From positions 1-34,323 of the forward strand of contig JANTGH010000022.1 of the NCBI GenBank assembly GCA_024763055.1: DNA of 34,323 nt, given 5' to 3'. The position numbers and the translations under genes were made by a program. This document shows positions 7,033-30,718 of this stretch, piece by piece (position 1 is the stretch's first letter; every line of letters starts with the position of its first letter). Below the pieces are notes generated by a model. That model did no database searches. It saw only the letters and a list, made by a program, of their open reading frames with translations, and was not told the origin of the DNA. Origin of the DNA: Desulfobulbaceae bacterium (GTDB taxonomy: Bacteria; Desulfobacterota; Desulfobulbia; Desulfobulbales; Desulfobulbaceae).

Positions 7033-7046
7033 ATTACTGAAAAAAC

Positions 7047-9817: not shown

Positions 9818-9898
9818 ATGAAAAAGAAGATTAAACGACATCTCCTTCTCGAACAGCTTGAAGACCGGATCTTCCTCAGCGCAAGCCCCCTTGCCGCT
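9818..9898 (+). other. LEPR-XLL-like N-terminal leader of the giant protein
   Basis: Encodes a basic start (MKKKIKRH) followed by LLLEQLEDRIFLSASP. The family motif is LEPRxLLSA-like; here P and R are replaced by E and D (LEDRIFLSA), with the hydrophobic pair and small residues kept. Such leaders are known only as short conserved N-termini of very large proteins. Their role as a sorting or processing signal is inference. Confidence 0.7.
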
Positions 9899-12800
9899 GT
9901 CGGCCCGGCGGACCATGTTGCGGAATCCGAACCCGTCGACCTGCACGCCCATGACACCCTGGTCCCGGCAACCGAGACACAGCACACTGCCGCGTCGGAT
10001 TCCGGGCATGTTACACCAGCCGGGCAAGAGCAGCCCAAGGCTGCGGAAACGTCGGAATCAACAAATTCCGCTAATAACATGGGAGCGGAGCACGGCAACC
10101 AGAGTAAACCGGATGATGCCGAGGCAATAGACAATGACCATGATAATCAGGCTGATGCCCAGACGGTGGCTGGTAGTGTACAGCAGGCCGACCAGGCGGC
10201 CGTATCCTCTGAAACCCATGGTACACAGGCAACTGACACAGGAACAGCAGATAACGCCGATCAAGCGGTAGGTGGCGTAGATACAACCATCCAAACTGAT
10301 AGTGATACTTCAGCCGGCATTGCAACCGATCAGGTCCGGGATGGTCAAAACGCAGATCATGAAAGCACAACCGCTGCCGGGGAAAACACTCCCCTGAGCG
10401 ATGCTGCGGACCCAACCACGGACCATGTTAATCCAGACGGTACCGATACAATAAATACCACCGATCTGGCTGACGCCGGTACGGATAGAGCTGATAGTGA
10501 AGCTGCTGACAATACGGCAAACAATGAGGTCGCATTGGCCGATGCTGCCGATGCAGTCGCCACCGACGATCAGGCCATTGACCCGATGATCGGCGAGGAT
10601 TTTACCTTTACAACTACTTTTGACAACACCACCGGTTCCGATGTATTCGGTCCCTATATTGACCTGCTGTTAGATGGAGGCCAGGATGGAAGTGATGCCG
10701 CTACTGATGATGGTATCTCTTTTGTCAGCGCCACCTATCTTAATGCCGACGTAGAATCAACGATAATTGACATCACCCAGAATGAGGTGGATAACGGTAT
10801 CACCCACCCCTGGGCAACGGACAACACCGGAGCGCCCTTAATTGTGCACGACATTGATGGTCAGACCTTCCATGTGGGCGACCAGTTTGTCTCCCTGCGC
10901 ATGCCATTCGGCTCCTTTACCCCTGATCAGCCGGCGGCCGAGGTGCAGGTAACCGCGCACATGGGAGTAAACGCCGATGTGGATGTGAATCTTGGAGTGC
11001 ATACAACAACCGGCGCCATGTACGGCCATGATGCTCTTGATAACCCAGCCAGTGATTCCCCACTTCGAGGTGCGGCGAATGGTCTCGCTCAAGAAACTGT
11101 TCACTATAAACCTGAGGTCATCACCTATCGTAAGGACATCATTGTCCCGAATGTTGGAGCCGACTGCCAGGAACAACATGCAGGCACTGATGATATCAGG
11201 CATTTTGCCGATGACGGCTCGCAGATTTTTGAACAGAATCACCAGGAAATCCCCACCGGTCCCAACTTCCCCGCCACCTACGTGGCCACTATTGATGTGG
11301 CCGATGGCCAGGAAGTAACAAACCTGAACCTGACCGAGCATTTACCTGATAACATTGTCTATACCGGCAATGTTACGGTTCAAGTGGGTGGTGTTGCTGT
11401 TGCCCATACCATAAATTTGACAGGGAGCGACCTTGTCATTAGCCTGGACAATAGCGTGACGGGTACAGCCAATGGTGACGACGTCGTCATCACCTATGAC
11501 TTTTATGTCCCGGATCAGACCACCACAGGAACTGATATCCTTAATCCTGCCACAGGTGATGATGGACATATCATCAATGACGGCGAGGTTGGCTACAGCT
11601 GGCAGCCAAACGATGGCAACGATCCGAATGTTGTTGACGCAACCATTGACCCGGAGGTTAATGCCGATGGTCATTTTTCCGACAATCCCAATGTAGACGA
11701 CATCTCTCATGCCCAGTCAATAGCCATTCAGAAAGACCATGCCCTGGATAACGATGCGGGTCATGCCGGTTACACACCCGGTGATCGTGTCCGGTTTACC
11801 CTTGATTTTGAAATTTCCGATTATTTCGGGTTCGGCAATATTGTCATTGATGACCTGTTGGCCGACGGTATGGACCTTCTCGCTGCGGCAGATGGTTTTG
11901 CCCCAACGATTACCATTGCTGAACGTGGCACGGACATTGTCACAAATCATGAACTTACAATTGGTTCGGAACTCGTGACTGGAACAAACGGGACGAACGA
12001 CGAAACCCTGCATTTTGATATTTCCCAGATTATTGGCGGGGATGGTGTCCTTGACGGTGGATACACGGACGGTCATACCGACGGAGCCACCCGGGGTACC
12101 ATCACCTACTGGGCAGAAATTCAACAAAACTATGTCAGCCCTGAAGGCGGCGGGGAAGCTAATGTCGACCAAGGTGACCTGCTGACCGGTGGCGTGACCA
12201 TTGAAGGGGATATATACGATTACCAGGCAAACGCATTGACCGCCAATTCAGAGGCCGACGAATCCTGTGACAGTATCGACATTATAACGGGTTCAGTGGA
12301 CAAGGATATTTATGCCGTAACTAATAGCACCGGCACAACGTATAATCCCGGGGACAACCCACATCTATCACCTGGAGACACAGTCACCTATCGCATACAC
12401 TATGCCATGCCCTTTTCCTCCACAGAGGACTTCAAGCTGACCGACTATCTCCCTTTACCGGTCTTTGATGTGTCAGCATACAGCTGGAGCAATACTGCGG
12501 ATGCAACCATCTATGATGGTACAACCACACCTGCTGCAGGCCACTGGGGATACACGACAAATGACAGCTATCACAATTTAGATACTCCTGATACAGTTTC
12601 AATAGGAGCAGGCAATACAATCATCTTTGATTATGGTGAGTATCATGATGGTGGTGACACCAACGCGGAAATAGAAATAGTATTTACCGTCACCGTTTCT
12701 GATGAGCCTTTTGCCGACGGCATGTTCCTGACCAATCAGGTCCGGGCCACCGAACAGGGTACCCCGCTGGCAGATAACAACACCGATGCCATTGTCCAGA

Positions 12801-15800
12801 TCGTGCTGGATGAACCGGATCTGACCATTGACAAAATTGCCAACCCTGCCTCAGGTATTGACGCAGGTGATACTGTCACCTTTACAGTAACGGTAGAAAA
12901 CACGGGAAACTCCTCTGCTTTTGACACCATTATCAAGGATACCTTACCCGATGGTTTTGATCCGTCGGCAGTGACCTTTACCGTGACCCAGGGAGCAAAT
13001 ACCCTTGTTGCCGGAACTGATTTCAACTGGACAGGTGGTGGTATTGACGGCGATATCAATACAACCGGTGATAATTTCTTTGCAGATCCCGGTACCGATG
13101 GCATTTATGGTACAGCTGATGATGGAAATGATGGCGGCATCGAACTGATAGACGGTACAAACGGCCAGCTTGACCCCAGTGAAACCGTCGTCATCACCTA
13201 CACCCTGACCGCCGCAAATGCTATCGGACCCAACCAGACTCTCACCAACACGGCAACAATAACCAACTTTGCCGGGGCGGAAGGGGCAACTGATCACACC
13301 AGCCAGGATATTTCCGATAATGCCGTCGTCCAGGCAACCAATGTCACTGTGGACAAAAGTATTGCCGATACCAGCCAACCCGACAGCGTCACCAGTGGCA
13401 GCAACGTCACCATAGGCGAGACAGTCACCTATTCTGTGACGATCACCCTGCCGGAAGGTTCGGCAACAAATGTTAGATTTGCTGATGCTATGGATCTAAA
13501 CAGCGGGCTGGAAATTATTTCCCTTGATTCTTTAACAGATTCATCCGGTGGCGACATTCTGTCAAGTCTTGATGGTGGCAACACCACTATTGACGATACC
13601 TTTTTAGCCAATCATGGTTCCATTGCCGGAGACAATCTTTCTTTTTCCATTGATTTTGGTAACCTTGAAAATCAAAACCGTGACAATGCGACAACAGAAA
13701 CAATAACCCTGACCTATACCGCCCTGGTTCGCAACATCTCCCATAATCAAAGCCAGACAGACCTGAACAACACGGCCCGGTGGAACTGGACGGATGGTAA
13801 CGGTACCGACCAATCGGCCAATGATACCGAAACCGTTACCATTGTTGAACCCGACCTGCAGGTAACCAAGACCGCGCCCGCTGGTCTGACGCCCGATGCC
13901 GGGGATACCTTTACCTACACTCTGGTCGTTGGACATGATGGCAGCACAAGCACTTCCGACGCTTTTGACGCGGTTTTAAGCGACCCTATTTTAGCCGGAT
14001 TGACTTATGCCGGAAATCTAACTTCCACCGGTGCAGCCACTGCGAGTCTCGCCTATGATGCAGGAACAAACTCCATTAACGCAACCTGGGACATACTGGC
14101 CCAGGGAACAACCACAACTATAACCTTTGACGTAACCGTGGATGATCCGATCCAGGCCGGCACCGACTTGACAAATACAGCCGGTATTTCCTGGACAAGC
14201 CTGCCGGATGGAGATCCCGGCACAAATGATGTCAACGAACGCACTGGGGACGGTGGTATAAACGATTACACTGCCACCGATACTCTGACCTTGACAGTTG
14301 CCGGAACAATCGACAAACTGGATCCTGTTCCAGCCACCTATACTATCGGCGATGAAGTAACCTATGATATCGTTGTTTCCCTTCCTGAAGGAACGACCGA
14401 TAATCTGGTAGTCACCGATGCCCTGCCTGCGGGAATGGAGTATATAAATTCTCAGGTGGTCCAGGTGGTATCAGGCAATACTTTCAATGGAACGGTTACG
14501 ACAACACCGACTGTTAACGACACAGCGGGTGACGGTAATGACATTACCTGGTCTTTTGGCAATATCACAGTAAACACAGATAACAATACGGCGAACAACA
14601 GCTTTATCGTTCGGGTAACCGCCCTGGTCACCGATATTCCCGGCAATCATGATGATCCGGACGCAGGAGGTCCTGCCCTGGCAGCATCTCTTGTCAATGA
14701 AGCGTCCATGACCTATGATGATCCCGATGGCGGAACTATCTTCACTGATGATCCAACAGATCCTGTAGTTACGGTTATTGAACCCTGGATTGAGACTACA
14801 AAAGATGTAAGGCCGACAACACATGTCGAAGCCGGAGATGTGCTGACCTATACGGTCAACCTGCAAAACGGCGGCAATGCCACAGCTTATGAGGTCAACT
14901 TCAATGATACTCTGGCCCCTGGCACCACATTTGGCTCAGTGCAGACGGCGGAAATAGGGGGGGCAGGCGTTTCTCTTGGAACCACATCCACATCGGGAAG
15001 TGTGATCACTTTTTCAGACGACACCTGGGACCTTGACCCCGGCCAGGTACTGACCCTGACCTACACTGTCAACGTTACCTCGGCCGCCCTGGTGGACGGT
15101 ACGCACACCAATACCGTTGATGCCGATTGGTCAAGCCAGAATGGTACGGACTCCAACGAGCGCGTTTATGATGAGAATGACGGCATCGATTCACCAGTAG
15201 ATGGCGGCGCCAATGGTGACAGAGATGTCGATACCGCTGTCTTTGCCATGGATCCGGTCACCATCGCCAAGAGTGACGGCGGCGTGACCGAGGCAACCAT
15301 CGGCGACACCATCACCTACACCCTGACGATAAACTCTCCCCAGGGCACCATTGATAACTTTGCGGTGGAAGATGTGCTGTCTCAGGGGTTGATATTTAAT
15401 GATGACGCGGTGATCAGCACAGCCAGCGGTTCGTTTTCAACTGAAAATTCTCAAGCACCAACCTTCACCCTTAATGACGGATCTGCAGATGTGACCATCA
15501 CCTGGGACCTCGGCGATACGGTTGTCAGCACCGACGACCCGATACTTATTACCTATACGGCAACAGTAGCCAATGTAAACAGTAATTTCTTAGGTGAAGG
15601 TCTTGGCAATACGGCATCCATTGAATACGACAACGCCCAGGGCGGGCATGAAACTCCAGCTCCGGTGACGGATGGTTTGACTGTGGCTGAACCACAGATC
15701 ACCACAGATAAAACGGTTGTCGATTCCGCAGACACCGGCACCGACGCCTCACCCGGCGAGACCCTGACCTATACCGCCCGATTTACCAATACCGGCGATT

Positions 15801-18800
15801 CCACGGCCTATGAAGTCACGGTTGATGATATCCTGCCGGTAGGCGTAGATTTTGACCCCTCTTCAGCTATAACATTGGTTGGAACTGGGATTCTTAATGC
15901 CGTTGATATCAATGCCAGCTATGATGCCAATGCCCAGACAATTAATTTTACCAACTCAGAGGATGGATGGGATCTTTTAGCAGGTGGCTGGTTTGAGATC
16001 CATTACACAGTCACCGTGATGTCGGCAGGGTTTACAGCAGGCAGTTACACCAACACCGTTGATGCCGACTGGTCCAGCCAGGACGGCACTGATCCCAACG
16101 AACGGGTGTATGATGATTCAGGGAACTCCCCTGTTGACGGTACTCAAGATGAAAATAATGCTGCTTTTAATGTAGTCGCTACTGCCTCCTTGGGCGACAC
16201 GGTCTTTTTTGATGCTGCAGGAGACGGCGGCGCGTTTGATGCTGCTTCCGGAGATGTCGGTATCAGCGGTGTGGATGTTACCATAAGCGCTGACGTTGAT
16301 GGTGACGGTACCCCCGAATTTACACAGACGGTGCGTACCGATGCCGACGGCAATTATCTCTTCACCAACCTCGCTGCCTTTGATAATTATGTCATTTCAG
16401 TTGATCCGGCCACCAGCGGCGGTGCCAATCCCACAGACCTGACCGCATCCGGCTACCACCAGACCTATGATCTGGATGAGGGGACGGTTGCCCTGGACAA
16501 CACAGCAACCAGTATCAGCCTGAGCGCCGGACAAAACCGCACAGATATAGATTTCGGTTATACCGGTCAAAATTCTGTTGGTGATACGGTTTGGTTTGAT
16601 GTGAATGGCAATGGTGGGCAGGATACCGGTGAAGACGGCATCGGTGGTCTGACGGTTACCCTGACCGCAGATATTGACGGTGATAGTGTGGATGAATACA
16701 CAACCACCACAACTACTGATGAAAATGGCCATTACAGTTTTGACCACCTGCCGGCCGGTGACTATGATATAACCGTAACACCGTCTGACGGTTCCACTCC
16801 CACCTATGACCAGGACAGCGGCACTGGATCGCCCGATAACACAACACCCTTTACCCTGGCGGCGGATCAGGATCGTGACGATATCGACTTCGGTATCCAG
16901 GGCACCGGTTCGATCGGCGATTATGTCTGGTATGATGCCAATGCCGACACTAATTCACAAAATGACGGACCCAATGCCGGTCTGGCTGGAGTGACGGTCA
17001 CCCTGTCCGGCGATATCGACGGTGACGGCACCATCGATTATACCACCTCAACAACCACCGCTGCCGACGGTAGTTATCTCTTTGACCACCTGCTTGGCGG
17101 TACCTATACCATAACCGTTGATGACTCTACCCTGCCGGGCGGTTCCTCCAACTGGTCGCAAACTTTTGACCGTGATGAAGGAACGAACCCGCCTGCACTG
17201 GATAACACGGCAACCGACATTGTTCTGGCTCCAGGTCAGAACCGGGATGACGTGGACTTTGGATACACCGGCACCGGTTCCCTTGGCGATACGGTCTGGT
17301 ATGATGCCAACGGCAACGGCGTCCAGGAGGGGACTGAGCTTGGGCTGGCCGGGGTCACTGTCACCATTTCCGCTGACGTGGATGGTGATGGCACAGCTGA
17401 ATACACTCATACCGCCATTACTGATGCCAACGGCAACTATCTTTTTGATCACCTGCCAGCGGCCGACTACACCATTTCTGTCGATACCAATACATTACCA
17501 GCCGGCGCCACGCCGACCTATGATCTGGACAGCGCCACCAGCTCACCGGACTCTACAACCCTCTATACTCTGGCCACCGGTGAACACACCGACCGGGTCG
17601 ATTTCGGCTACACAGGAACCGGCTCTATCGGTGATACGGTCTGGAACGACATTAATGGCGACGGCGTTCAGGATACCAGTGAAAACGGCTTTGGTGGTGT
17701 GACGGTTACCCTGACCGGTGACTTTGACCATGACGGCCAGGCCGATGATACCCTGACCACGACAACGGACGCCGACGGTCATTACTCATTTGACAACCTC
17801 TTTCTTGGCGCATACATGGTGGCCGTTGATCCAGCCACCCTGCCGGCAGGCAACAGCCAGACCCATGATCTTGATGACCCGCATTCCACAACACCAACGA
17901 CTCCCAATACGGCGGCAGTTACTCTGGATGCAGCCAATCCGATCAACAATGATGTGGATTTCGGCTATAACTCCAAGTCCACCATCGGTGATACCATCTG
18001 GTATGATGCCGATAACGACGGCGTTCAGGATCCGGGTGAGCCGGGGTTAGCCGGTGTGACCGTCACCCTGACCGGGGACGTGGATGGTGACGGCAGCCAG
18101 GACACGGTTATCGCTACCACTGATGCCGATGGGCATTATCTCTTTGATCAGCTGCAGGCCGGCGACTATACAATTACAGTGTCCGACCTTCCTGCTGGTA
18201 TGGCCCAGACCGCTGATCCGGATGGAACCAATGATAATACCACCACCCTGACCCTTGGTGGCGGTGAGACCAACCTGGATCAGGATTTCGGCTATACCGG
18301 CACCGGAACCATCGGAGATACCATCTGGAACGATGGCGATGGCGACGGCTCACAGAATAACGGCGAGTCCGGGCTGGCCGGGGTCACCGTCACCCTGAGG
18401 GCTGATCTCAACAACGATGGAATTCTTGACACGGTGACCACAACCACGGATGCAAACGGCAACTATCATTTTGATAACCTGCCTGCCGACGACTACACCA
18501 TCACCGTTGATCCCGCCACCCTTCCGCCGGGCATGAACCAGACCGCTGATCCGGACGGAGGCAATGACAACACCGCAGATGTTACCCTGGCGGCCGGTGA
18601 AACCAACAACGATCAGGATTTCGGCTACCAGCAGACCGGCACCATCGGAGATACCATCTGGTATGATGCCGACGGTGACGGCATTCAGGATCCCGGCGAG
18701 TTAGGCCTGAACGGGGTTACCGTCACTCTGACCGACGGGAGCGGCAACACCGTTGCTACGACAACAACCGCAAGTGACGGCAAGTATCTCTTTGATAATC

Positions 18801-20923
18801 TCACGGCGGGTGACTACACCATCACCCTGACCGGTCTGCCGAACGGCATGACCCAGACCGCAGATCCCGATGGCGGCAATGATAATTCCGCGCAGGTCAC
18901 CATCGGCGGCTCCAGTCCGCTGGTCGACCTGGACCAGGATTTCGGCTATACCGGCACCGGCTCCATCGGCGATACCATCTGGAATGATGCCGACGGCAAT
19001 AGCGCCCAGAATAACGGCGAAACCGGTCTTGCCGGAGTGACCGTCACCCTGAGCGGGGATTTCAACGGCGACGGCGTACCGGACACGGTGACCACCACCA
19101 CCGATGCCAATGGCCAATATCATTTTGAGCGTCTACCGGAAGGCCAATATACCATTACCGTTGACCCGGCCACCCTGCCGCCGGGCATGCAGCAGACCGC
19201 TGACCCGGATGGAGGTAACGACAATACCGCCGACGTCACCCTGCTCGCCGGTGAAACCAATAACGATCAGGATTTCGGCTACCAGCAGTCCGGCACCATC
19301 GGTGATACCATCTGGTATGATGCCGACGGCGACGGAGTCCAGGATCCCGGCGAGCTTGGACTGGCCAATGTCCAGGTCACCCTGGTCGGCGATCTTGACG
19401 GCGACGGCCAGGCCGATGACACTCTGACTACGGTAACCGACGCAAACGGCCATTACCTCTTTGACAAACTGCCCGCAGGAAGCTATGCCATTACCGTTGA
19501 CCCGGCCACCCTGCCCGGTGGCATGGAAGAGACCCATGACCTGGATGGGACAGGGTCAGCCAATACCGCCCAGGTGACCATCGGCGACCATGAGGCCAAT
19601 CTGGATGTTGATTTTGGTTACAAGGGCACCGGTTCCATTGGCGACACCATCTGGTATGACGTGGATAATGACGGCGTCCAGGACCCGGGAGAGGTCGGAA
19701 TTCCAGGAGTCACCGTCACCATTACCGGTGACTTTGACAACGACGGTCAGGCCGATGACAGCATGACCGTCACCACCGGCCCGGACGGAACATACCTGTT
19801 TCCCAACCTGCCGGCCGGTGAGTATGACATCACCATTGATCCGACCACCCTGCCCGGCGGTATGCAGCCTGCCGGCGACCCCGATGGTACCCTGGACAAT
19901 ACCACCCATCTGAGCCTGAACGCCGGTGAGGTCAATCTTGACCAGGATTTCGGTTATACCGGTACCGGCTCCATTGGCGACCAACTCTGGAATGACCGGA
20001 ACGGCAACGGCATTCTTGATCCCGGCGAAGCACCGCTCCCCGGTGTGGAGGTCTGTATAGGCGTGGATCTTGACGGTGACGGCACTCCTGATTTCCGGGC
20101 AACCACGACCACCGGCGCCGACGGCACCTATCTCTTTGACAACCTGCCCGCAGGCGCGCACACGGTCTGCGTCAATCCGGCAACGCTTCCCCCGGGCATC
20201 AGGCCCAGCTTTGATCCGGACGGCACCAATGACAACGCAACCGTTGTCAACCTCGGAGCTGGTGAAAATAATGCAGACATTGATTTTGCCTATGTTTTTC
20301 CGCCGAAACCAGTGCCTCCGGTAACACCGGTTGTACCGCCTGCCCCTGTGCCGCCGGCCCCCGTGCCACCGACTCCCGGGCCCGGTTTTGCCAGTGACCC
20401 GCTGCTGCCTTATCAGCAGTTTGGTGACAAAGAAATCGAAGATATTTTCCTGTATCCATTTGAAGAAATTCCCTGGCAGATACCTGTCCTGCCGGTAACC
20501 CCCATCTACACCGGACACGCGGAGCCGGGAACTACCCTGGAATTTATTCTGTACGACGTAATGGGCAACCAGATCGGCCAGCAGTCCATCATGGCCGATA
20601 CCGCAGGCAACTGGCTGGCCAGTTTTCCCGATACCATCATGTATGACCTGCCCCACCATATGGCAATCACCCAGAACCTATCCTCGTACAATGTAAGTTC
20701 CGCAGGATTCTTTAACATGCGGACCTATTTCAGTCCCAACTTCAGCAGCATGGTCTTTTCCAGCACTGAACTGGATATAGATACAATCTTTGCCTATCTA
20801 CCTTCCACGATACTCAATTCCATGCACGCCGGGAATATGTCGATCTTCAATATCCAATGGAATGACTTTAATGAATATGAATTCTTTGCTCCATCAACAC
20901 AACCGGCTAAGACCGGTCACTGA
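9818..20923 (+). CDS. Giant repetitive surface adhesin-like protein (LEPR-XLL-like, DUF11-like, SdrD-B-like)
   Basis: A single intact ORF of 3701 residues. The start is MKKKIKRHLLLEQLEDRIFL, a variant of the LEPR-XLL N-terminal motif found on very large bacterial surface proteins. It is not a standard Sec signal peptide because no long hydrophobic core is present. Then: an Asp/Ala/Thr-rich acidic linker (about 30-253); DUF11/fimbrial-type beta domains (about 254-2120), the last seven alternating between two types; 12 SdrD-B-like domains of 107-125 residues (about 2123-3491), each with DxDxDG calcium-type loops; a proline-rich linker (about 3494-3525); a Big-type Ig-like unit (GHAEPGTTLEF, about 3563-3620); and an aromatic, Ser-rich tail. 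No LPXTG, PEP-CTERM or RTX repeats were seen. GGGA precedes the ATG. The secretion operon starts 24 bases downstream. A role in cell-surface adhesion or biofilm matrix is inferred. Confidence 0.9.
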   Translation: MKKKIKRHLLLEQLEDRIFLSASPLAAVGPADHVAESEPVDLHAHDTLVPATETQHTAASDSGHVTPAGQEQPKAAETSESTNSANNMGAEHGNQSKPDDAEAIDNDHDNQADAQTVAGSVQQADQAAVSSETHGTQATDTGTADNADQAVGGVDTTIQTDSDTSAGIATDQVRDGQNADHESTTAAGENTPLSDAADPTTDHVNPDGTDTINTTDLADAGTDRADSEAADNTANNEVALADAADAVATDDQAIDPMIGEDFTFTTTFDNTTGSDVFGPYIDLLLDGGQDGSDAATDDGISFVSATYLNADVESTIIDITQNEVDNGITHPWATDNTGAPLIVHDIDGQTFHVGDQFVSLRMPFGSFTPDQPAAEVQVTAHMGVNADVDVNLGVHTTTGAMYGHDALDNPASDSPLRGAANGLAQETVHYKPEVITYRKDIIVPNVGADCQEQHAGTDDIRHFADDGSQIFEQNHQEIPTGPNFPATYVATIDVADGQEVTNLNLTEHLPDNIVYTGNVTVQVGGVAVAHTINLTGSDLVISLDNSVTGTANGDDVVITYDFYVPDQTTTGTDILNPATGDDGHIINDGEVGYSWQPNDGNDPNVVDATIDPEVNADGHFSDNPNVDDISHAQSIAIQKDHALDNDAGHAGYTPGDRVRFTLDFEISDYFGFGNIVIDDLLADGMDLLAAADGFAPTITIAERGTDIVTNHELTIGSELVTGTNGTNDETLHFDISQIIGGDGVLDGGYTDGHTDGATRGTITYWAEIQQNYVSPEGGGEANVDQGDLLTGGVTIEGDIYDYQANALTANSEADESCDSIDIITGSVDKDIYAVTNSTGTTYNPGDNPHLSPGDTVTYRIHYAMPFSSTEDFKLTDYLPLPVFDVSAYSWSNTADATIYDGTTTPAAGHWGYTTNDSYHNLDTPDTVSIGAGNTIIFDYGEYHDGGDTNAEIEIVFTVTVSDEPFADGMFLTNQVRATEQGTPLADNNTDAIVQIVLDEPDLTIDKIANPASGIDAGDTVTFTVTVENTGNSSAFDTIIKDTLPDGFDPSAVTFTVTQGANTLVAGTDFNWTGGGIDGDINTTGDNFFADPGTDGIYGTADDGNDGGIELIDGTNGQLDPSETVVITYTLTAANAIGPNQTLTNTATITNFAGAEGATDHTSQDISDNAVVQATNVTVDKSIADTSQPDSVTSGSNVTIGETVTYSVTITLPEGSATNVRFADAMDLNSGLEIISLDSLTDSSGGDILSSLDGGNTTIDDTFLANHGSIAGDNLSFSIDFGNLENQNRDNATTETITLTYTALVRNISHNQSQTDLNNTARWNWTDGNGTDQSANDTETVTIVEPDLQVTKTAPAGLTPDAGDTFTYTLVVGHDGSTSTSDAFDAVLSDPILAGLTYAGNLTSTGAATASLAYDAGTNSINATWDILAQGTTTTITFDVTVDDPIQAGTDLTNTAGISWTSLPDGDPGTNDVNERTGDGGINDYTATDTLTLTVAGTIDKLDPVPATYTIGDEVTYDIVVSLPEGTTDNLVVTDALPAGMEYINSQVVQVVSGNTFNGTVTTTPTVNDTAGDGNDITWSFGNITVNTDNNTANNSFIVRVTALVTDIPGNHDDPDAGGPALAASLVNEASMTYDDPDGGTIFTDDPTDPVVTVIEPWIETTKDVRPTTHVEAGDVLTYTVNLQNGGNATAYEVNFNDTLAPGTTFGSVQTAEIGGAGVSLGTTSTSGSVITFSDDTWDLDPGQVLTLTYTVNVTSAALVDGTHTNTVDADWSSQNGTDSNERVYDENDGIDSPVDGGANGDRDVDTAVFAMDPVTIAKSDGGVTEATIGDTITYTLTINSPQGTIDNFAVEDVLSQGLIFNDDAVISTASGSFSTENSQAPTFTLNDGSADVTITWDLGDTVVSTDDPILITYTATVANVNSNFLGEGLGNTASIEYDNAQGGHETPAPVTDGLTVAEPQITTDKTVVDSADTGTDASPGETLTYTARFTNTGDSTAYEVTVDDILPVGVDFDPSSAITLVGTGILNAVDINASYDANAQTINFTNSEDGWDLLAGGWFEIHYTVTVMSAGFTAGSYTNTVDADWSSQDGTDPNERVYDDSGNSPVDGTQDENNAAFNVVATASLGDTVFFDAAGDGGAFDAASGDVGISGVDVTISADVDGDGTPEFTQTVRTDADGNYLFTNLAAFDNYVISVDPATSGGANPTDLTASGYHQTYDLDEGTVALDNTATSISLSAGQNRTDIDFGYTGQNSVGDTVWFDVNGNGGQDTGEDGIGGLTVTLTADIDGDSVDEYTTTTTTDENGHYSFDHLPAGDYDITVTPSDGSTPTYDQDSGTGSPDNTTPFTLAADQDRDDIDFGIQGTGSIGDYVWYDANADTNSQNDGPNAGLAGVTVTLSGDIDGDGTIDYTTSTTTAADGSYLFDHLLGGTYTITVDDSTLPGGSSNWSQTFDRDEGTNPPALDNTATDIVLAPGQNRDDVDFGYTGTGSLGDTVWYDANGNGVQEGTELGLAGVTVTISADVDGDGTAEYTHTAITDANGNYLFDHLPAADYTISVDTNTLPAGATPTYDLDSATSSPDSTTLYTLATGEHTDRVDFGYTGTGSIGDTVWNDINGDGVQDTSENGFGGVTVTLTGDFDHDGQADDTLTTTTDADGHYSFDNLFLGAYMVAVDPATLPAGNSQTHDLDDPHSTTPTTPNTAAVTLDAANPINNDVDFGYNSKSTIGDTIWYDADNDGVQDPGEPGLAGVTVTLTGDVDGDGSQDTVIATTDADGHYLFDQLQAGDYTITVSDLPAGMAQTADPDGTNDNTTTLTLGGGETNLDQDFGYTGTGTIGDTIWNDGDGDGSQNNGESGLAGVTVTLRADLNNDGILDTVTTTTDANGNYHFDNLPADDYTITVDPATLPPGMNQTADPDGGNDNTADVTLAAGETNNDQDFGYQQTGTIGDTIWYDADGDGIQDPGELGLNGVTVTLTDGSGNTVATTTTASDGKYLFDNLTAGDYTITLTGLPNGMTQTADPDGGNDNSAQVTIGGSSPLVDLDQDFGYTGTGSIGDTIWNDADGNSAQNNGETGLAGVTVTLSGDFNGDGVPDTVTTTTDANGQYHFERLPEGQYTITVDPATLPPGMQQTADPDGGNDNTADVTLLAGETNNDQDFGYQQSGTIGDTIWYDADGDGVQDPGELGLANVQVTLVGDLDGDGQADDTLTTVTDANGHYLFDKLPAGSYAITVDPATLPGGMEETHDLDGTGSANTAQVTIGDHEANLDVDFGYKGTGSIGDTIWYDVDNDGVQDPGEVGIPGVTVTITGDFDNDGQADDSMTVTTGPDGTYLFPNLPAGEYDITIDPTTLPGGMQPAGDPDGTLDNTTHLSLNAGEVNLDQDFGYTGTGSIGDQLWNDRNGNGILDPGEAPLPGVEVCIGVDLDGDGTPDFRATTTTGADGTYLFDNLPAGAHTVCVNPATLPPGIRPSFDPDGTNDNATVVNLGAGENNADIDFAYVFPPKPVPPVTPVVPPAPVPPAPVPPTPGPGFASDPLLPYQQFGDKEIEDIFLYPFEEIPWQIPVLPVTPIYTGHAEPGTTLEFILYDVMGNQIGQQSIMADTAGNWLASFPDTIMYDLPHHMAITQNLSSYNVSSAGFFNMRTYFSPNFSSMVFSSTELDIDTIFAYLPSTILNSMHAGNMSIFNIQWNDFNEYEFFAPSTQPAKTGH
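10579..16183 (+). repeat. DUF11/fimbrial-type beta-domain array
   Basis: The encoded protein shows about eleven related domains. The last seven (from about 12809) start near 12809, 13335, 13849, 14295, 14770, 15250 and 15690. They alternate between an A type (ENTGNSSAFDTIIKDTLPDG) and a B type (SLPEGTTDNLVVTDALPAG). Many A-type units end in a THTNTVDADWSSQNGTD-like segment. Repeats were recognised by eye, so domain borders are approximate. Confidence 0.75.
16184..20295 (+). repeat. Twelve SdrD-B-like (Cna-B fold) tandem repeats
   Basis: Units begin with [AGNS][ST][ILV]GDxxWxDxxxDGxQ near 16184, 16573, 16909, 17278, 17623, 17980, 18308, 18641, 18962, 19295, 19634 and 19970. Each runs through GLAGVTVTL, a DxDGDG loop, TDANGxYxFDNLPAGxYTITVD and a DQDFGYTGTG linker. 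The first and last units are the most divergent. The last contains two cysteines (VEVCIG, HTVCVN), otherwise rare in this protein. Confidence 0.9.
18308..19369 (+). repeat. 654-nt module duplication inside the SdrD-B array
   Basis: Repeat 7 plus the start of repeat 8 (18308 to about 18715) recurs as repeat 9 plus the start of repeat 10 (18962 to about 19369), at a constant 654-nt offset. The shared DNA includes long near-identical runs around CAGGATTTCGGCTACCAGCA and ACCATCTGGTATGATGCCGA. The second halves of repeats 8 and 10 differ in sequence and length, so later recombination replaced one of them. Confidence 0.8.
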
Positions 20924-20947: not shown

Positions 20948-22765
20948 ATGAAGAAAAATCTTGGAATACTTGCCTTGACCGCTTTAGGGAGCCTGACGGT
21001 TGTATCACCCGTACTGGCTGATAATGATCAGCCCACGGATTATGAAGTGGCCGTTCAGGCAACCGATGAGAACACTCTTGACTATGAACACATAAAAGAA
21101 AGATTGTTTAAACGATATGTGCCCCTCGTTGAGCGTATGGAGCAGGGTGAGAAAGGATATACTTCCATTTTCTCCGCTTCCTCAGGAGACCCGACCACGA
21201 ACTCTGGAGCTATTCCTGAGAAGTTCACTCCCTGGTGGCAAGCCAAAGTCAATAAAAAAATCAACACCAAGGTGACAAATATCTCCACCGATGTTACTTC
21301 GCTTTTTACCCGGGCCTTGAAACACTCTTCACAGATTCAGGTATTCAGTGATCTGCCGCTCATTCGAGAAACGACTATCCAGGAGGCCGAAGGGCCGTAT
21401 GACTTCAGACTGTTTGCCGAAGGCCGTCTAAGTGATCTCGACGAACCGGTTGGCGATGACCTGAAGACCGGTGGCCCCCTTCGTTATGAGGAAACCTCAA
21501 AAAATCTTGAATACGGAATCCGGAAAAAATTTATCACCGGCACCGAAGTCGAATTAAAACAGAACATCGGTGATATAGATACCAACTCAACGTTTTTCAA
21601 CCCGGAAGATCAGGCCCGCACTGGTACATACCTGACCATCAAACAGCCGCTTCTCAAACGGTTCGGTATTGTCTACAATCGTTCTCCTATTGACCTGGCC
21701 ACCATTGATCACTCCATTGCCGGAGAAGAGCTGCGGCGAAATGTGGAAAGTCATCTGCTTGAGGTCAGCCGTGCTTACTGGGGCCTGTATCTCGAGCGTT
21801 CCCTGTTACTGCAGAAGAAACAGCTTGCCGAGAAAAGTATGAAAATCTTTGAAAAAATGCGGCAGCGTACTTCTGTGGATGTACCTCCCAGCCTGCTGGC
21901 CCGAGCTAAATCATTGGTCAACGCCCATAAACTGGCCGCAATGCAGGCGGAATTTGCCATGCTCAATGCCCAGTCACGAATCCGTGCTCTCGTTAATGAT
22001 CCTGAGCTTACAGGCCAATCCGCCCTTGAGTTAACTACCAGTCAGCTGCCTTCCCACAAGCCCTTTAACGTCAGCTTCGATAATGCCCTCAAGACAACCC
22101 TTGAAAACCGGCCCGAAGTCGCCCAATCCATGAAGCATATCCAATCCGCCTACCTGCGTCTGCAACGCTCTGAAAATGAACTTCGCCCGGACCTGGATCT
22201 CTTCTTCCAGACCTATGTCAAAGGGCTGGAGGGTGATTATGAGTACGGCAACGCTTATTCCAATCAATTTGATGAGGGCGGTCCCAGTTATGTCGGCGGC
22301 CTGCGTTTTGAGTATCCGCTGGGCAACAACGGCGCCGAGGCCCGAAACCTGCGGAAGAAAATTGAAATTCGTCAGCTCCTGCACCAGTTGGATACCACGG
22401 TACAGAATGTTCTGCTTGAAGCGCAGGTTTCCTATCGTGAGCTTGAAAAAAACTATCGTTCCATGGTACAAAGCTACCAGATCATGCTCTCCGACAATGA
22501 AGAGGTCAAAGCCCTGCTGTCGCGGGTTGATTACCTGTTGGCCAACCATGACCCCTATGGAGACGTGTTGTACCGGTTGATGGATGCCGATGAACGGTTG
22601 TCTGATTCCGAAGAGCTGTTTGCAAAAAGTGAACTAACCTATAACTATTCCCTCTATAACCTGTATCGGGCCATGGGTATTCTGGTCTCCAATCAGCAGA
22701 TAGTCTTTGAAAAAGATACCAACGATCAGGATGAACTTCCGGTTATGCATGTTAAAAGGCAATAG
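20948..22765 (+). CDS. TolC-family outer-membrane efflux/secretion channel
   Basis: 605 residues with a clear signal peptide (hydrophobic LGILALTALGSLTVVSPVLA, cut likely after VLA). A roughly 100-residue extra N-terminal section precedes the TolC core. The core shows long amphipathic helices (RNVESHLLEVSRAYWGLYLERSLLLQKKQLAEK; later LHQLDTTVQNVLLEAQVSYRELEKNY) and the family-typical RPEVAQSMKHIQSAYLRLQRSENELRPDLDL. It would form a trimeric outer-membrane exit duct. An AGAAGGAAG Shine-Dalgarno sequence lies just before the ATG. The gene begins 24 bases after the giant protein and overlaps the following adaptor gene, which argues that it serves secretion of that protein. Confidence 0.88.
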   Translation: MKKNLGILALTALGSLTVVSPVLADNDQPTDYEVAVQATDENTLDYEHIKERLFKRYVPLVERMEQGEKGYTSIFSASSGDPTTNSGAIPEKFTPWWQAKVNKKINTKVTNISTDVTSLFTRALKHSSQIQVFSDLPLIRETTIQEAEGPYDFRLFAEGRLSDLDEPVGDDLKTGGPLRYEETSKNLEYGIRKKFITGTEVELKQNIGDIDTNSTFFNPEDQARTGTYLTIKQPLLKRFGIVYNRSPIDLATIDHSIAGEELRRNVESHLLEVSRAYWGLYLERSLLLQKKQLAEKSMKIFEKMRQRTSVDVPPSLLARAKSLVNAHKLAAMQAEFAMLNAQSRIRALVNDPELTGQSALELTTSQLPSHKPFNVSFDNALKTTLENRPEVAQSMKHIQSAYLRLQRSENELRPDLDLFFQTYVKGLEGDYEYGNAYSNQFDEGGPSYVGGLRFEYPLGNNGAEARNLRKKIEIRQLLHQLDTTVQNVLLEAQVSYRELEKNYRSMVQSYQIMLSDNEEVKALLSRVDYLLANHDPYGDVLYRLMDADERLSDSEELFAKSELTYNYSLYNLYRAMGILVSNQQIVFEKDTNDQDELPVMHVKRQ

Positions 22766-23666
22766 CCCCTCCCCTGCCCGCCTGCTTCTCAGGCGGGCAG
22801 GAATTCACTCGTTATCGCTCGCTGTTTTCTTCATTTCAGCTTCGGCTTTTTCCGCTTTTGCGGCTACTTTTGAGACCTTTCTTGAACCGGCGCAGATTGT
22901 TGACATTTCAACGCCTTATCGTGACCGTATTGATGTCATCCATGTCCGGGAAAATGATCACGTCCACAAGGGAACCCTGCTGGCCGAACTTGCCACAGGG
23001 GTGCTTGAAAGTCGACTGGCCCAGGCAAGGGAAACCGCGAAAAACCACGGAGAAATTGACGCGGCCAGAGCCATGGTGTCGATGCGGAAAAACCGGGTTC
23101 AAATGCTTGTTGAGTTGAAAAAATCCGGCAATGCCAGGCCTCAGGAACTGAGTACCGCAAAAACCGAACTGACCATGGCAAAAGCGGATTTACAAAGCGC
23201 CCTTGATCGGCAACGGCTAAAGAAAAGTGAAGCCAAGGTCATTGAAGCGCAGCTGGAAGAAAAAAAGCTGAAAAGTCCCATAGACGGCGTTGTAGTCACC
23301 ATCTATAAACAACAGGCCGAGCTGATCGGTGGTGCTGATACCCAGCCATTGTTGACCATTGCCCAGCTTGATCCGTTGCATGCAGTTTTTCATCTACCGC
23401 CCGAGGCGGCGCACAGTCTGAAAAATAAAAAACAAATCTCCCTCGTAGTGGCGGGACAACAGACAACCGGGAACATAGACTTTATCTCGCCGATTATTGA
23501 CGCGCAGAGCGGCACTATCACCGCGCGCATTATCCTGACCAATACAAATCATACCCTGGACAGCGGCTCCCGCTGCACTCTTGTCCTTAATGATACTCCA
23601 GGAGAACCCTCCCATGACCGAACAGGAACAGAAAACCCAACAGCAGATCAAGGTCCGCTACAATGA
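22749..23666 (+). CDS. HlyD-like periplasmic adaptor protein
   Basis: Soluble periplasmic membrane-fusion protein that would bridge an inner-membrane component to the TolC-like channel. The track starts at 22707. The ATG at 22749 is preferred because it overlaps tolC by only 17 bases and gives a plausible signal peptide (SLSLAVFFISASAFSAFAA). The 305-residue product has a split lipoyl domain (IVDISTPYRDRIDVIHVRENDHVHKG, then KSPIDGVVVTIYKQ) around a roughly 110-residue coiled coil rich in Lys, Glu and Ala. A beta-barrel-like C-terminal part follows. It ends inside the next small gene, overlapping its start by 53 bases. No lipobox or anchor helix beyond the signal peptide is seen. Confidence 0.85.
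   Translation: MLKGNSPSPARLLLRRAGIHSLSLAVFFISASAFSAFAATFETFLEPAQIVDISTPYRDRIDVIHVRENDHVHKGTLLAELATGVLESRLAQARETAKNHGEIDAARAMVSMRKNRVQMLVELKKSGNARPQELSTAKTELTMAKADLQSALDRQRLKKSEAKVIEAQLEEKKLKSPIDGVVVTIYKQQAELIGGADTQPLLTIAQLDPLHAVFHLPPEAAHSLKNKKQISLVVAGQQTTGNIDFISPIIDAQSGTITARIILTNTNHTLDSGSRCTLVLNDTPGEPSHDRTGTENPTADQGPLQ
22774..22800. repeat. Strong hairpin at the tolC-adaptor junction
   Basis: CTGCCCGCCTG-CTTCT-CAGGCGGGCAG is a perfect 11-bp, GC-rich stem with a 5-base loop. It lies 9 bases after the tolC stop and 25-51 bases into the overlapping adaptor gene, in the signal-peptide coding part. No T-run follows, so it is not an intrinsic terminator. It could set expression ratios along the operon mRNA. 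Confidence 0.8.
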
Positions 23667-23919
23667 AACCTCGGCCCTTTTTGCCTCCCAGTTCATTGTC
23701 AACACCAGCGCCGAAGATGTGACGATCAACTTCTCCTCCGGCCCCTTAAGCGACCCGGCGACCGGAGAAACCATCCTGCCGGTCCATACCCGGATGGCCA
23801 TGACCCGGGAAGGGGCGCGGCGGCTGCATGCCGTGTTAACCAATGTCTTGGGCGACCCGGAAAACAAGGGTAAAATTCCCGCCAACGCCCAGGCAAAACT
23901 CCCGGACATCAAGCAATAG
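23614..23919 (+). CDS. Small DUF3467-like protein
   Basis: 101 residues from the ATG at 23614, which follows AGGAGA at good spacing. The longer TTG-start version at 23581 is unlikely. The sequence runs KVRYNETSALFASQFIVNTSAEDVTINF ... RMAMTREGARRLHAVLTNVL. This resembles DUF3467: a beta-rich start with an 'A-x-F-x-V-x-x-S' strand, and a C-terminal 'M-x-x-x-x-A-R-R-L' helix. No signal peptide or membrane helix is seen, so it is probably cytosolic. It overlaps the adaptor gene by 53 bases and is followed 5 bases later by the GAF-HlyD gene, so it is an integral operon member. Function unknown; a chaperone or assembly role for the export system is possible. Confidence 0.7.
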   Translation: MTEQEQKTQQQIKVRYNETSALFASQFIVNTSAEDVTINFSSGPLSDPATGETILPVHTRMAMTREGARRLHAVLTNVLGDPENKGKIPANAQAKLPDIKQ

Positions 23920-23924
23920 CAGCA

Positions 23925-25772
23925 GTGCGGCACACCCCGAACACCGAAGGGGAGACCTTTACGATCTCCGCGCCTGACCTGCGCCAACTGACAGCGCTCT
24001 TCAGCAGCTCAGCTTTTCAGCAGGCTGATCGCCGAACACTTCTGCAACAGTTCCTGCAACAGACTATTGCCCTGATCAATGCTGCCGGCGCAGTCTATTT
24101 TTCCCGGCAGGGGACAAATCTTACACCGGAGATGTCTCTGCTGGCCCGGCAGATGCAAAGCCGGGGTGACGCCCTAAATGATGAGCTGAAAAGCTGCGCC
24201 TTAAATGCGCTTTCCCGAGAAGAAGTCTGCTATAACAGGTTTGGCGGCAGTAGTTCCATGTACTGCATAAGCTGTCCCGTTCCTCTGAACAAAGGCTGTC
24301 TAACGGTACTTCTCGTCACCGACCACGGCTCGCTCTCCCCTTTTATTGTAACTCTGCAGCTGTTAGCGGCGCTGCTTGACCAGTATCTGTTGCAAGAGAA
24401 GACAACAATAAAGAGTAACGCAGATCCCTCGCTCTCTATTCAGTTCCTGCCAACCCTGAGTACTCTATTTTCACTGCCGCCCGGCAAGGAACGTATCCTG
24501 CATCTGAACCAATCGCTGAAACTTTTTACCGGCGCGGATCTTTCCGTGCTTGCCCGTGGAAAAAATGGAAAAAATATTCATATTTCCGCTCTTTCCGATG
24601 TGGCCTCCCTGGACCGACGAACACATCAGATTCGGCTGCTGCAGAAGGGGATCGATGAATGTGTTCTTCGTGGGGTTCCTCTCTGCTGGCCGGAAAGCGA
24701 TGACAAGTCAACCCAGGGCTCGCTGGTCCTTGAAGAAATAGGACGAAACACAGGCGGAGCCCAGGTGATGGCAATCCCGCTTGCCGCCGAAGGAAACGCC
24801 CCGCACGCTGTGCTCCTGTTGACTTGGAAGACACTCGCCGACAGGAGTCAAATACAACAGGCCCTGTCCGGATTTGCTCCGGTGCTCTCCGGTATCCTTC
24901 CCTGCCTTGACAAGGCAAAAGGAAAACAGGGTTCGGACCAAAAACAAATCAAACCCGGTGCGCATTGGACGCTTCAAAATAAGGTCACGACTGCCGTGGC
25001 CGCGTGCCTTGTCCTGCTGCTCTTGCTTCCTGTTCCCTATCGTCTGGCGGCAGAGGCAATTGTTCAGCCCAGGGTCACCCGATTTGTGGTGTCCCGTTAT
25101 GATGGTCTACTCATTGAGGCCAGGGTCCGTCCCGGTGACCGGGTTGAAAAAGGCGACATACTTGCGCGTCTTGACGGTCGGGAAACCGAGGTGAAACTGG
25201 CCTCCCTGCAGGCAGAGATGGACAAGGCAAAAAAATTGTTCGACCAGGCCACGGCATTGGGAAATACGCCTGCCGCCCAGGTCGCGCGCCTCGATATGCT
25301 CCGATATGAACAACAGCTCACCCGTCTCCGCGAACACCGGGACCATCTGACCCTTACAAGTCCGGTGACCGGCATGGTTCTGACCGGTGATCTGCAACGG
25401 GCGGAAGGCAGTCCGGTGAGCCGGGGCCAGACATTATTTGAAGTAGCCCCCCTTGCTCAGATGGAAGTCGAGGTCGCTATCGATGAACAGGATATAGCCC
25501 AGGTTCCAAACAATGCTGTAGTCACCATTCGTTTTGATGCGTATCAGGACCTGTCCTGGAAGAAAAAATTTGAGCGTATTGAACCCAGGGCTCAGATTCG
25601 AAACAATCAAAACGTGTTTGTCGGCATTCTCGAATTTGACAACCCGCAAGGCCGTCTTCATCCCGGAATGCGCGGAACAGCAAAAATCCATGCCGGCACA
25701 AGACTGTTAGGCTGGATCATCTTCCGCAAACCATGGCACACCCTGCTTCGCCTGTTTGACTCCCTGTTGTAA
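23925..25772 (+). CDS. GAF-domain-containing HlyD-family adaptor
   Basis: 615 residues from a GTG, 5 bases after the DUF3467-like gene. The N-terminal half (about 20-335) has no signal peptide and looks like two GAF-type modules: LLQQFLQQTIALINAAGAVYF to LQLLAALLDQYLLQE, and then LHLNQSLKLFTGADLSVLARG to AVLLLTWK. A single membrane helix follows (about 352-372, VAACLVLLLLLPVPYRLA). The periplasmic part is HlyD-like: lipoyl half DGLLIEARVRPGDRVEKGDILARLDG, short coiled coil, second half LTSPVTGMVLTGDLQ, and beta-barrel VEVAIDEQDIAQVPNNAVVTIRF. It ends in GWIIFRKPWHTLLRLF. It therefore appears to be an adaptor carrying a cytosolic sensor or interaction module. The GAF call is by pattern and moderately certain; the HlyD part is confident. 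Confidence 0.83.
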   Translation: MRHTPNTEGETFTISAPDLRQLTALFSSSAFQQADRRTLLQQFLQQTIALINAAGAVYFSRQGTNLTPEMSLLARQMQSRGDALNDELKSCALNALSREEVCYNRFGGSSSMYCISCPVPLNKGCLTVLLVTDHGSLSPFIVTLQLLAALLDQYLLQEKTTIKSNADPSLSIQFLPTLSTLFSLPPGKERILHLNQSLKLFTGADLSVLARGKNGKNIHISALSDVASLDRRTHQIRLLQKGIDECVLRGVPLCWPESDDKSTQGSLVLEEIGRNTGGAQVMAIPLAAEGNAPHAVLLLTWKTLADRSQIQQALSGFAPVLSGILPCLDKAKGKQGSDQKQIKPGAHWTLQNKVTTAVAACLVLLLLLPVPYRLAAEAIVQPRVTRFVVSRYDGLLIEARVRPGDRVEKGDILARLDGRETEVKLASLQAEMDKAKKLFDQATALGNTPAAQVARLDMLRYEQQLTRLREHRDHLTLTSPVTGMVLTGDLQRAEGSPVSRGQTLFEVAPLAQMEVEVAIDEQDIAQVPNNAVVTIRFDAYQDLSWKKKFERIEPRAQIRNNQNVFVGILEFDNPQGRLHPGMRGTAKIHAGTRLLGWIIFRKPWHTLLRLFDSLL

Positions 25773-25777
25773 CGCCC

Positions 25778-27955
25778 ATGAATAACGCAGGATCAACCCA
25801 GATGCCTCGCCTTCGACCAGGACTTCGTTTTACCCCTGTTGGAGAGCATAATCAGGCCCATTACATTGTCGAAGATACCGCCCGCCATGTATATTACCGT
25901 ATCGGCCTGGAAGAATACCTGTTGCTTGCCCATCTAAACCGGTCCTCCTCCCTTGAAGAGCTCCTGCAAAAGGCTGCTGCCACCTCCGATGTGGCGTTAG
26001 CACCTGAGCAGGCGATGACAGTCCTGAAATGGGCTGCAGCAAAACAGTTGCTGCAGACCGATAGTCCCAAAACTCTCAACGCCCTGTTAGGTCAGGAAAA
26101 ACAGCTTCAGGCGATGCGTGCCTTAAATCGAATGAACCTGGTCTCTTTTAAGATACCTCTGGGCAATCCTGATCCGTTACTGCAGAAAATCTCCCCATGG
26201 CTCAGGCCGCTCACCGGTCCCTTCTTCGGTCTGCTCTGGATAGTTGCCGCCTTATTTGCCATGGGCACACTTTTTTCCCACTGGCAGGAATTTCATGCCG
26301 GCAGCACCGGTTTTTTTTCACCGACAAACCTCTTTCTTCTCTGGCTGATCTGGCTTGGCCTGAAAATTTTACACGAGCTGTTCCACGCCCTGGTCTGTTA
26401 CCGTTACGGCGGCAGGGTCCATGAGGCCGGTATACTTTTTATCCTTTTTATGCCGTTTACCTATGTCAATGCCACCTCTTCGTGGAAATTCCCCTCCCGC
26501 TGGCAACGTATCCATGTTGCCATAGCCGGTATGTTCATCGAGCTGGCCGTCGCCTGGACAGCCCTGATCATCTGGGCGAAAAACCCCGACACCACTGCCG
26601 GGCTCATTGCCCATCGCACCGTCATTGTTGCCGGAATCAGTTCACTGCTCTTCAACGCAAATCCCCTGATGCGTTTTGACGGCTATTACATCCTCTCCGA
26701 CCTGGTCGACATTCCCAATCTCTATCAACTGGGCCTGCAAAGCACGAAAGAACTCTGGGCCCGTCTGCTGTTAAACATCAAAGCACCCTCGGTTATCACC
26801 AGCGCTCAACAGGCACACTGGCTGTTTATCCGTATCTACGGCGTATTGGTCTTTCTCTGGCGGATTCTGATTTTTGCATCGCTTGGTTATATGGCCTCCA
26901 AACTTTTCGGCGGCCTGGGCACGCTTATCAGCCTGTTGGCTGTTCTGGTCTGGATATCCTCTCCAATACATGATTTCATCGCCCGCTTACCGGCATACAG
27001 GGAACAGAATCCACAGGTGCTCCGAAATCTGTTGCTGCGCACTTCCATCATGATATGCCTAAGTACGATTCTGTTGGCTACGGTGGGCTGGAAACGGTCG
27101 ATCCGGGCACCGGCAGTGGTGGAATATGAACAGCAATACCGGGTCAAGGCAGGGGCCGGTGGTTTTGTCAGTACAATTCTTGTTAAAGATGGCGACAGGA
27201 TATCGGCAGGACAAAAGCTGATGATCCTGGAAGATCCGGATCGTGTCGCTACACTGCATGTTGCTGAACTTGAGCTTCAACAGACACGGGTTAAAATCAG
27301 GATAGCCTACAACAGGGGACAATTGCCTGCAATGCAGATACTGCGGCAACAGGAGAAGGCATTAATCACAAAGCTCAAACAGCAGCAGGATGAATTCGCG
27401 GCGCTGACCGTTACGGCCCCCGGCAGTGGCACAGTCATTGCCGAGGGCCTTGACCAACTCATGGGAACCTATATGAAGAAGGGGAATGAGATTCTGTGGA
27501 TCGTCAACCCCGAACAAAAACAAATGGTTGCCAGTGTTGCTCAAGATGATATCGACCAGATGCGCGACCTGGTGGGAAAAAATGTTACCATTGACATGCG
27601 TGACAGCGGTCTTGGTCTTTTCACCGGCAGGGTAAAACGCATAACCCCGACAGCCTCAACGGAATTGACGCATCCCGGCCTTGCCGCCAAATACGGGGGG
27701 TCGATTGATGTTCTTCAAAAAACGGTCGGCAGGAAAGACAGCTCCATGCGGGAACAGATCCAGTTTGAATTTTTCGAACCTCGCTTTTCAATGGAAATCA
27801 CCGTGCCCGGAGAATTTGTCCGAAGGCTTTGGTCCGGCCAGCTCGCCTATGTTCTGGCCCGGGGTCCCCGCATCACTCTGCGTCGAAAAATCCATGATAT
27901 ATTTTCCACATGGGTCAGCAACAAGGACAGGGCGGCAGCGATTAAGACCAGATGA
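25778..27955 (+). CDS. PqqD-like, M50 (site-2 protease-like), HlyD-like fusion protein
   Basis: 725 residues. Residues about 8-100 resemble a PqqD-like/RRE winged helix (YIVEDTARHVYYRIGLEEYLLLAHLN ... EELLQKAA). The membrane core carries the M50 zinc motif HELFH (His199, Glu200, His203) and the distal ligand motif NPLMRFDGYY (Asp301), so the protease looks intact. Several more helices lead to one near 412-432. A HlyD-like periplasmic arm follows: YRVKAGAGGFVSTILVKDGDRISAGQKLMILED, a short coiled coil, VTAPGSGTVIAEG and a beta-barrel. It starts 5 bases after the GAF-HlyD gene, and its stop overlaps the ydbH start (ATGA). It is probably the inner-membrane core of the export system. Whether it cleaves the giant protein leader or merely binds it cannot be read from the sequence. 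Confidence 0.85.
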   Translation: MNNAGSTQMPRLRPGLRFTPVGEHNQAHYIVEDTARHVYYRIGLEEYLLLAHLNRSSSLEELLQKAAATSDVALAPEQAMTVLKWAAAKQLLQTDSPKTLNALLGQEKQLQAMRALNRMNLVSFKIPLGNPDPLLQKISPWLRPLTGPFFGLLWIVAALFAMGTLFSHWQEFHAGSTGFFSPTNLFLLWLIWLGLKILHELFHALVCYRYGGRVHEAGILFILFMPFTYVNATSSWKFPSRWQRIHVAIAGMFIELAVAWTALIIWAKNPDTTAGLIAHRTVIVAGISSLLFNANPLMRFDGYYILSDLVDIPNLYQLGLQSTKELWARLLLNIKAPSVITSAQQAHWLFIRIYGVLVFLWRILIFASLGYMASKLFGGLGTLISLLAVLVWISSPIHDFIARLPAYREQNPQVLRNLLLRTSIMICLSTILLATVGWKRSIRAPAVVEYEQQYRVKAGAGGFVSTILVKDGDRISAGQKLMILEDPDRVATLHVAELELQQTRVKIRIAYNRGQLPAMQILRQQEKALITKLKQQQDEFAALTVTAPGSGTVIAEGLDQLMGTYMKKGNEILWIVNPEQKQMVASVAQDDIDQMRDLVGKNVTIDMRDSGLGLFTGRVKRITPTASTELTHPGLAAKYGGSIDVLQKTVGRKDSSMREQIQFEFFEPRFSMEITVPGEFVRRLWSGQLAYVLARGPRITLRRKIHDIFSTWVSNKDRAAAIKTR

Positions 27956-30435: not shown

Positions 30436-30450
30436 CACCGGGAGAACCTT

Positions 30451-30639: not shown

Positions 30640-30718
30640 TCACGCCGGAACGTGGCAAGGTAAGAATATTGGCAGTAAAAAATAAAACCTGTTTCCTCGA
30701 ATAGTTAAGGTGAATATC

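Follow-up and report, generated by a model that had tools for sequence, protein, structure and literature searches.

A protein that joins a PqqD-type domain, an M50 protease domain and a HlyD-type adaptor domain is found almost only together with a single short N-terminal tag borne by giant proteins. Seen over hundreds of genomes, this association suggests that some of the largest bacterial proteins are exported by a route addressed through that tag. The reading is built on computed results: the fold of the N-terminal domain, a conserved leader, near-exclusive co-occurrence of leader and fusion, matched classes of both, intact protease residues and the make-up of the gene cassette. Our fullest version of it is a tentative one. 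It would be a distinct multi-phylum secretion system, in which an RRE on a protease-adaptor fusion may address giants of up to about 19,000 codons by a portable leader that is then clipped, with TolC as the conduit, no ABC transporter, often a SecA-like drive, and two leader codes (LLSAD and FDGA) served by two matched reader clades. For the export of proteins of many thousand residues that lack a normal signal peptide, the analysis offers a candidate for the exporter, a putative domain that reads the cargo and a portable tag that would act as its address. If the reading is true, RiPP leader recognition has been reused as a secretion address, and an export route not assigned before can be traced by the fusion and its leader in genomes of several phyla.

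The window cassette and its giant protein

The window, by which we mean the whole stretch of 34,323 nucleotides analyzed, holds the following features, all on the forward strand.

9818..20923, +, giant protein of 3,701 aa with DUF11 and SdrD_B repeats, proposed cargo
9848..9883, +, LEPR-type leader LEQLEDRIFLSA, giant residues 11-22 (NF012209 match)
20948..22765, +, TolC-like outer-membrane channel (Pfam OEP, 6.5e-17)
22707..23666 (from the first listed start codon; the real start is probably further in), +, HlyD-type periplasmic adaptor encoded by a separate HlyD gene (Pfam HlyD_D23, 2.8e-13)
23614..23919, +, DUF3467 small protein, between the two HlyD genes (PF11950, 28.1 bits, cut-off 25)
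23925..25772, +, GAF-HlyD, the second HlyD protein, with an N-terminal part of ~350 aa (Pfam HlyD_D23, 3e-19)
25778..27955, +, PqqD-M50-HlyD fusion of 725 aa, proposed receptor at the inner membrane, protease and exporter adaptor (Pfam Peptidase_M50, HlyD_D23, HlyD_3)
25799..26056, +, PqqD/RRE-type domain of the fusion, residues 8-93, proposed leader reader (AF2 fold, PDB profile, Foldseek, HHalign)
26372..26386, +, HExxH zinc motif HELFH of the fusion, residues 199-203 (conserved in paired relatives)
27092..27658, +, HlyD-type adaptor domain of the fusion, residues 439-627 (Pfam PF16576 (HlyD_D23), E=2.8e-14)

The giant starts MKKKIKRHLLLEQLEDRIFLSAS, and the leader within it reads as a variant form of LEPR-XLL, a motif modelled in NCBIfam (NF012209). 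It scored 15.0 bits in hmmscan of the whole protein and 21.9 bits in the genome scan, the cut-off being 17. By its N-terminal motif the window giant is a probable member of the motif family of the LEPR-XLL proteins (NF012209, LEPR-8K). For that family we found only passing mentions in the literature and no assigned exporter, NF012209 being a motif model. We gathered 55 distinct leaders by a motif profile, which biases the following counts upward: all have E(+1) and R(+3), 53 have L(0), position -3 is nearly always hydrophobic, and E at -2, S or D at +7 and A at +8 occur in 45, 51 and 47 leaders, respectively. The claim in the preliminary description that the giant begins with a conserved short leader is borne out.

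Open frames with LEPR leaders reach 12,000-19,427 codons, each uninterrupted (G390:C115, G316:C40, G343:C1 and others). The genome of the window contains a second system, split by assembly over two contigs. On one (C264), a second LEPR giant has as its neighbors a HlyD gene and the tail end of a SecA-like gene (locus L040); on the other (C258), a GAF-HlyD gene precedes the first part of another PqqD-M50 fusion, of the SWYRVA type (locus L041).

In having HlyD-type adaptors and a TolC-type channel beside a giant repeat protein, the window cassette resembles type 1 secretion. Unlike type 1 secretion, it has a giant with an N-terminal leader, and no ABC transporter was found among its genes or in the other cassettes annotated. 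The families listed for the giant of the window include no RTX repeat family. The N-terminal part of the GAF-HlyD protein is GAF-like in relatives, one of which (at L035) gives a weak match to GAF_2.

Domains of the fusion protein

The fusion is built of an N-terminal domain (N-domain), followed by the M50 part and then the HlyD part. We collected its relatives from 15 of the 297 genomes of the window's phylum and from the best 80 of at least 591 matches on named genome contigs; among the matches listed, the nearest relative is from a Desulfobulbaceae MAG (69% identity). By itself, the N-domain of the window protein has no Pfam or NCBIfam match and is too divergent for the PF05402 PqqD model. 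Among the N-domains of 83 relatives, however, PF05402 matches 32 (best 2.5e-9), the TIGR03859 PqqD model 15 and the daptide protease model NF041824 11. A profile of these 83 rows matched the PqqD structures 3g2b (8e-5) and 5sxy (0.0076) when compared with the PDB; its match to the lasso-peptide RRE TfuB1 (6jx3, 0.14) was below significance. RRE-Finder calls an RRE where the profile comparison with PqqD 5SXY or 3G2B reaches a probability of at least 80% (PMC7470986). The N-domain family exceeds this value, HHalign giving 94.8% against a profile of chains 3g2b, 5sxy and 6jx3 in a pairwise comparison rather than a database HHpred search.

The AlphaFold2 model of the N-domain has strands at residues 16-23, 26-33 and 38-43 and helices at 44-51, 59-69 and 76-88, with a core pLDDT of ~90 or more. 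This three-stranded sheet followed by three helices is the winged helix of the PqqD/RRE fold. Foldseek with the full-length fusion model returned HlyD/MacA-type matches only, and the N-domain was then modelled separately. Its best matches in the PDB were TbiB1 with the TbiA leader (5v1u/5v1v) and TfuB1 with its leader (6jx3), at TM-scores by target length of 0.66-0.72, probabilities of 0.99-1.00 and E-values of 0.01-0.14. Given the profile matches of the relatives, the predicted fold and the Foldseek matches, the N-domain (residues ~8-95) is almost certainly of the RRE (PqqD) type. The preliminary description had proposed a PqqD-like winged helix at 25800-26080 (fusion residues ~8-101) and comparison with RRE models as the check on it; profile, HHalign and structural comparisons agree on that assignment. 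The N-domain shares with PqqD and the lasso RREs TbiB1 and TfuB1 the beta3-alpha3 winged helix, by profile as well as by structure. Unlike discrete RREs, it is joined to a membrane protease-adaptor, and the window copy alone falls below Pfam and NCBIfam detection.

The M50 part has the HExxH motif and the distal Asp in NPxxxxDG of M50 site-2 proteases. H199, E200 and D301 are kept in all 75 paired relatives and H203 in 74 of them, and the HExxH motif is invariant in A1. D301, within NPLMRFDGYY, is a candidate third zinc ligand. Residues 23-391 of the fusion match the daptide_HExxH model NF041824 (E=1.3e-42, 146.3 bits), under its curated cut-off of 300. Foldseek matches for the HlyD part are MacA/MexA/AcrA. 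In the full-length AlphaFold model, several helices lie between residues ~148 and 435 and an HlyD-type fold follows, an arrangement that would fit a predicted topology with the reader in the cytoplasm and the adaptor in the periplasm. A single M50-HlyD protein without the PqqD-like N-domain was observed (L037, G281), in a genome without a LEPR match.

Co-occurrence and matched classes of fusion and leader

Of 297 genomes sampled from the phylum of the window, 15 have the fusion and 11 a strict LEPR match (E<=0.007), nine having both (p=6e-12). When the LEPR threshold is relaxed to E<=0.02, nine of the 18 LEPR genomes have the fusion (p=5e-9). An independent sample of 399 Pseudomonadota genomes gave a similar picture: 90 have the fusion, 42 a LEPR match and 41 both (p=1.7e-29). 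Pairing of fusion and leader is seen in the phylum of the window as well as in Pseudomonadota, Planctomycetota and Verrucomicrobiota, and each large clade of the fusion tree shows it. A LEPR match with no detected fusion is rare (genomes G541, G082 and G135).

The remaining 49 Pseudomonadota fusion genomes had no LEPR match. We opened six of their loci, and at four of these a giant lies no more than a few kb from the fusion and starts with a variant leader, LEPRxMFDGA. A profile of this variant matches 42 of the 49 genomes versus none of 31 genomes without a fusion; four of its five seeds came from those 49 genomes, and the independent count is 38 of 45. The notion that these genomes have no leader was rejected, their apparent lack of one being mostly an artefact of the NF012209 model, which misses LEPRxMFDGA at the cut-off used. 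This second leader type goes with a deep clade of fusions and is found in many Pseudomonadota genomes (examples at L174, L176, L177 and L179).

Only part of the cargo is encoded next to its presumed exporter. A fusion gene lies within 20 kb of 25 of the 55 LEPR frames; one frame of 12,249 codons is 610 kb away from the fusion on the same contig (G348), and in two Thiotrichales genomes (G300 and G313) LEPR giants and fusion are on different contigs. Distant or other-contig cargo is what a portable address tag would look like. We consider it very likely that leader and fusion act in one pathway.

Leaders and fusions also fall into corresponding types. We compared 75 same-contig pairs, using a contig fragment to assign the leader of one (L023/G105). 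Leaders of the form LEPRxLLS[AG][DE] accompany SWYRVA-type fusions, LEPRxMFDGA leaders the deep clade, and LE[DE]RxxL/F/Y[SD]A leaders the window and planctomycete-type fusions. In each of four genomes (G316, G472, G335 and G633), both types of fusion are present, and each adjoins its own leader type.

Proposed reading of the leader and relation to known systems

The leader-reader idea has a precedent in daptides, where an RRE-site-2 protease (MpaP) occurs with the leader ELExMEAP (PMC10036551). RRE-dependent processing by its partner MpaB was lost when the leader carried the substitution L(-7)A or M(-4)A, and according to the authors MpaP removes the leader in an RRE-dependent manner (PMC10036551). 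Similarly to MpaP/DapP (NF041824), the fusion has an N-terminal RRE on an M50 protease with HExxH, and the two are collinear over fusion residues 23-391. The Phi-E-x-Phi-E spine of the daptide leader recurs in the LEPR leader, whereas LEPRxMFDGA leaders are without its Phi-E half. Unlike the daptide protease, the fusion has an added HlyD domain and a giant repeat protein as its cargo. The annotated genes of the window cassette (giant, TolC, HlyD, DUF3467, GAF-HlyD and YdbH) include no peptide-modifying enzymes, and daptide-type short Thr-ending precursors, decarboxylase, aminotransferase and methyltransferase are absent among them.

We infer the following scheme for binding, cleavage, export route and energy source. 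The N-domain would bind the LEPR-type leader of the giant in the cytoplasm and dock the cargo on the fusion. The M50 part, by its residues an intact intramembrane zinc protease, might then clip the leader, as MpaP is said to do in daptides; we regard cleavage of the leader by this part as about even. The HlyD part of the fusion, together with the separate HlyD and GAF-HlyD proteins, would connect the TolC-type channel with the inner membrane. Export would be powered by a dedicated SecA-like ATPase where one is encoded and by housekeeping SecA/SecYEG elsewhere.

Co-occurrence, matched classes and the daptide precedent count in favor of the RRE-type domain as the reader, and this is the probable reading; the reader-leader link is supported indirectly. 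Distances between leaders correlate with those between N-domains (0.69), M50 domains (0.69) and HlyD domains (0.61). The partial correlation is 0.24 for the N-domain given M50 and 0.245 for M50 given the N-domain, and 0.40 for the N-domain given HlyD versus 0.04 for HlyD given the N-domain. These values argue that the reading part is the N-domain, the protease domain or both, and not HlyD. We rejected the proposition that co-evolution singles out the N-domain as the reader, since N-domain and M50 track the leader equally. The column that tracks the leader best in the whole protein, column 85 (r=0.665, the next being 0.579), lies in helix 3 of the N-domain. Phe at this column is paired with D-type leaders (26 of 26) and Gln with S-type leaders (27 of 32). 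Strand 3 and helix 3 form the leader-binding face of RREs. The pattern at column 85 is confounded with clade, and as a site of leader specificity the column is no more than a lead.

The equal tracking by the M50 domain is also what might be expected if another component read the leader, namely the SecA-like ATPase, SecYEG or GAF-HlyD, with the PqqD-like domain a structural or regulatory element that the protease has inherited. Among 97 fusion loci, GAF-HlyD is encoded at 87, HlyD at 64, a SecA-like ATPase at 53 (for example L025:12777-14816, L026:5989-7992, L050:4284-6224 and L091:12087-14075) and DUF3467 at 14, so that two of the alternative readers are common. The SecA-like proteins are ~640-720 aa long and match the SecA_DEAD, preprotein cross-linking and P-loop domains, with no match to the remaining SecA domains. 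LEPR giants nevertheless stand beside fusions at loci without a SecA-like gene (the window, L023, L030, L031, L046, L052, L055 and L066), and in the daptide precedent it is the RRE that is described as the leader reader (PMC10036551). We consider a reader other than the fusion unlikely.

Less probable still is that LEPR represents an unusual Sec-type signal, the giant leaving through SecYEG and the site-2 protease cutting a membrane remnant with no contact between RRE and leader. Basic residues do precede the motif in the window giant, the protease motif is intact and SecA-like genes recur in cassettes. Against this, the motif is acidic and interrupted, with no uninterrupted hydrophobic core and with its E and R invariant over the 55 leaders. 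Moreover, an ordinary Sec signal needs no dedicated fusion, whereas nearly every Pseudomonadota LEPR genome has one. Finally, shared inheritance of a large adhesin island would account for genes that are often adjacent and for related species inheriting both, yet it is very improbable as the source of the co-occurrence, because the pairing recurs over four phyla and every large fusion clade, cargo is often on other contigs or hundreds of kb off, and two fusion clades keep two matched leader types inside single genomes.

The daptide precedent makes the RRE-type domain more likely as the leader reader and the idea itself less novel. The preliminary description had taken the pairing of RiPP-type recognition with giant-adhesin secretion to be undescribed. 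Daptide systems already provide an example of an RRE joined to a site-2 protease; of an RRE-protease-HlyD protein tied to leader-bearing giants we found no description. Our literature searches, with most subscription journals outside them, returned no description of PqqD with M50 and HlyD, of PqqD with a site-2 protease, or of SecA with HlyD and a giant. As far as searched, what is new is an RRE-protease in a TolC/HlyD exporter for giants, in which a SecA-like ATPase is frequent and the examined cassettes show no ABC transporter. Two known kinds of system, the daptide-type RRE-protease and the HlyD/TolC exporter, are thus combined in a way for which we found no description.

Further genes lie beside or within the cassettes. 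Directly 3' of the fusion in the window (27952-31039) are YdbH-like, YnbE-like and DUF1318 (YdbL-like) genes, YdbH being an intermembrane phospholipid transport protein according to Pfam. Just upstream of the giant (4480-9332), a response regulator, a FecR/LysM/fn3 protein and a CHASE2 histidine kinase are encoded, which may regulate it. TolC-type channels are frequent at fusion loci, and in Oceanospirillum a SapC-family gene (PF07277, 1.3e-73) is located between the giant and TolC (L112:3489-4241).
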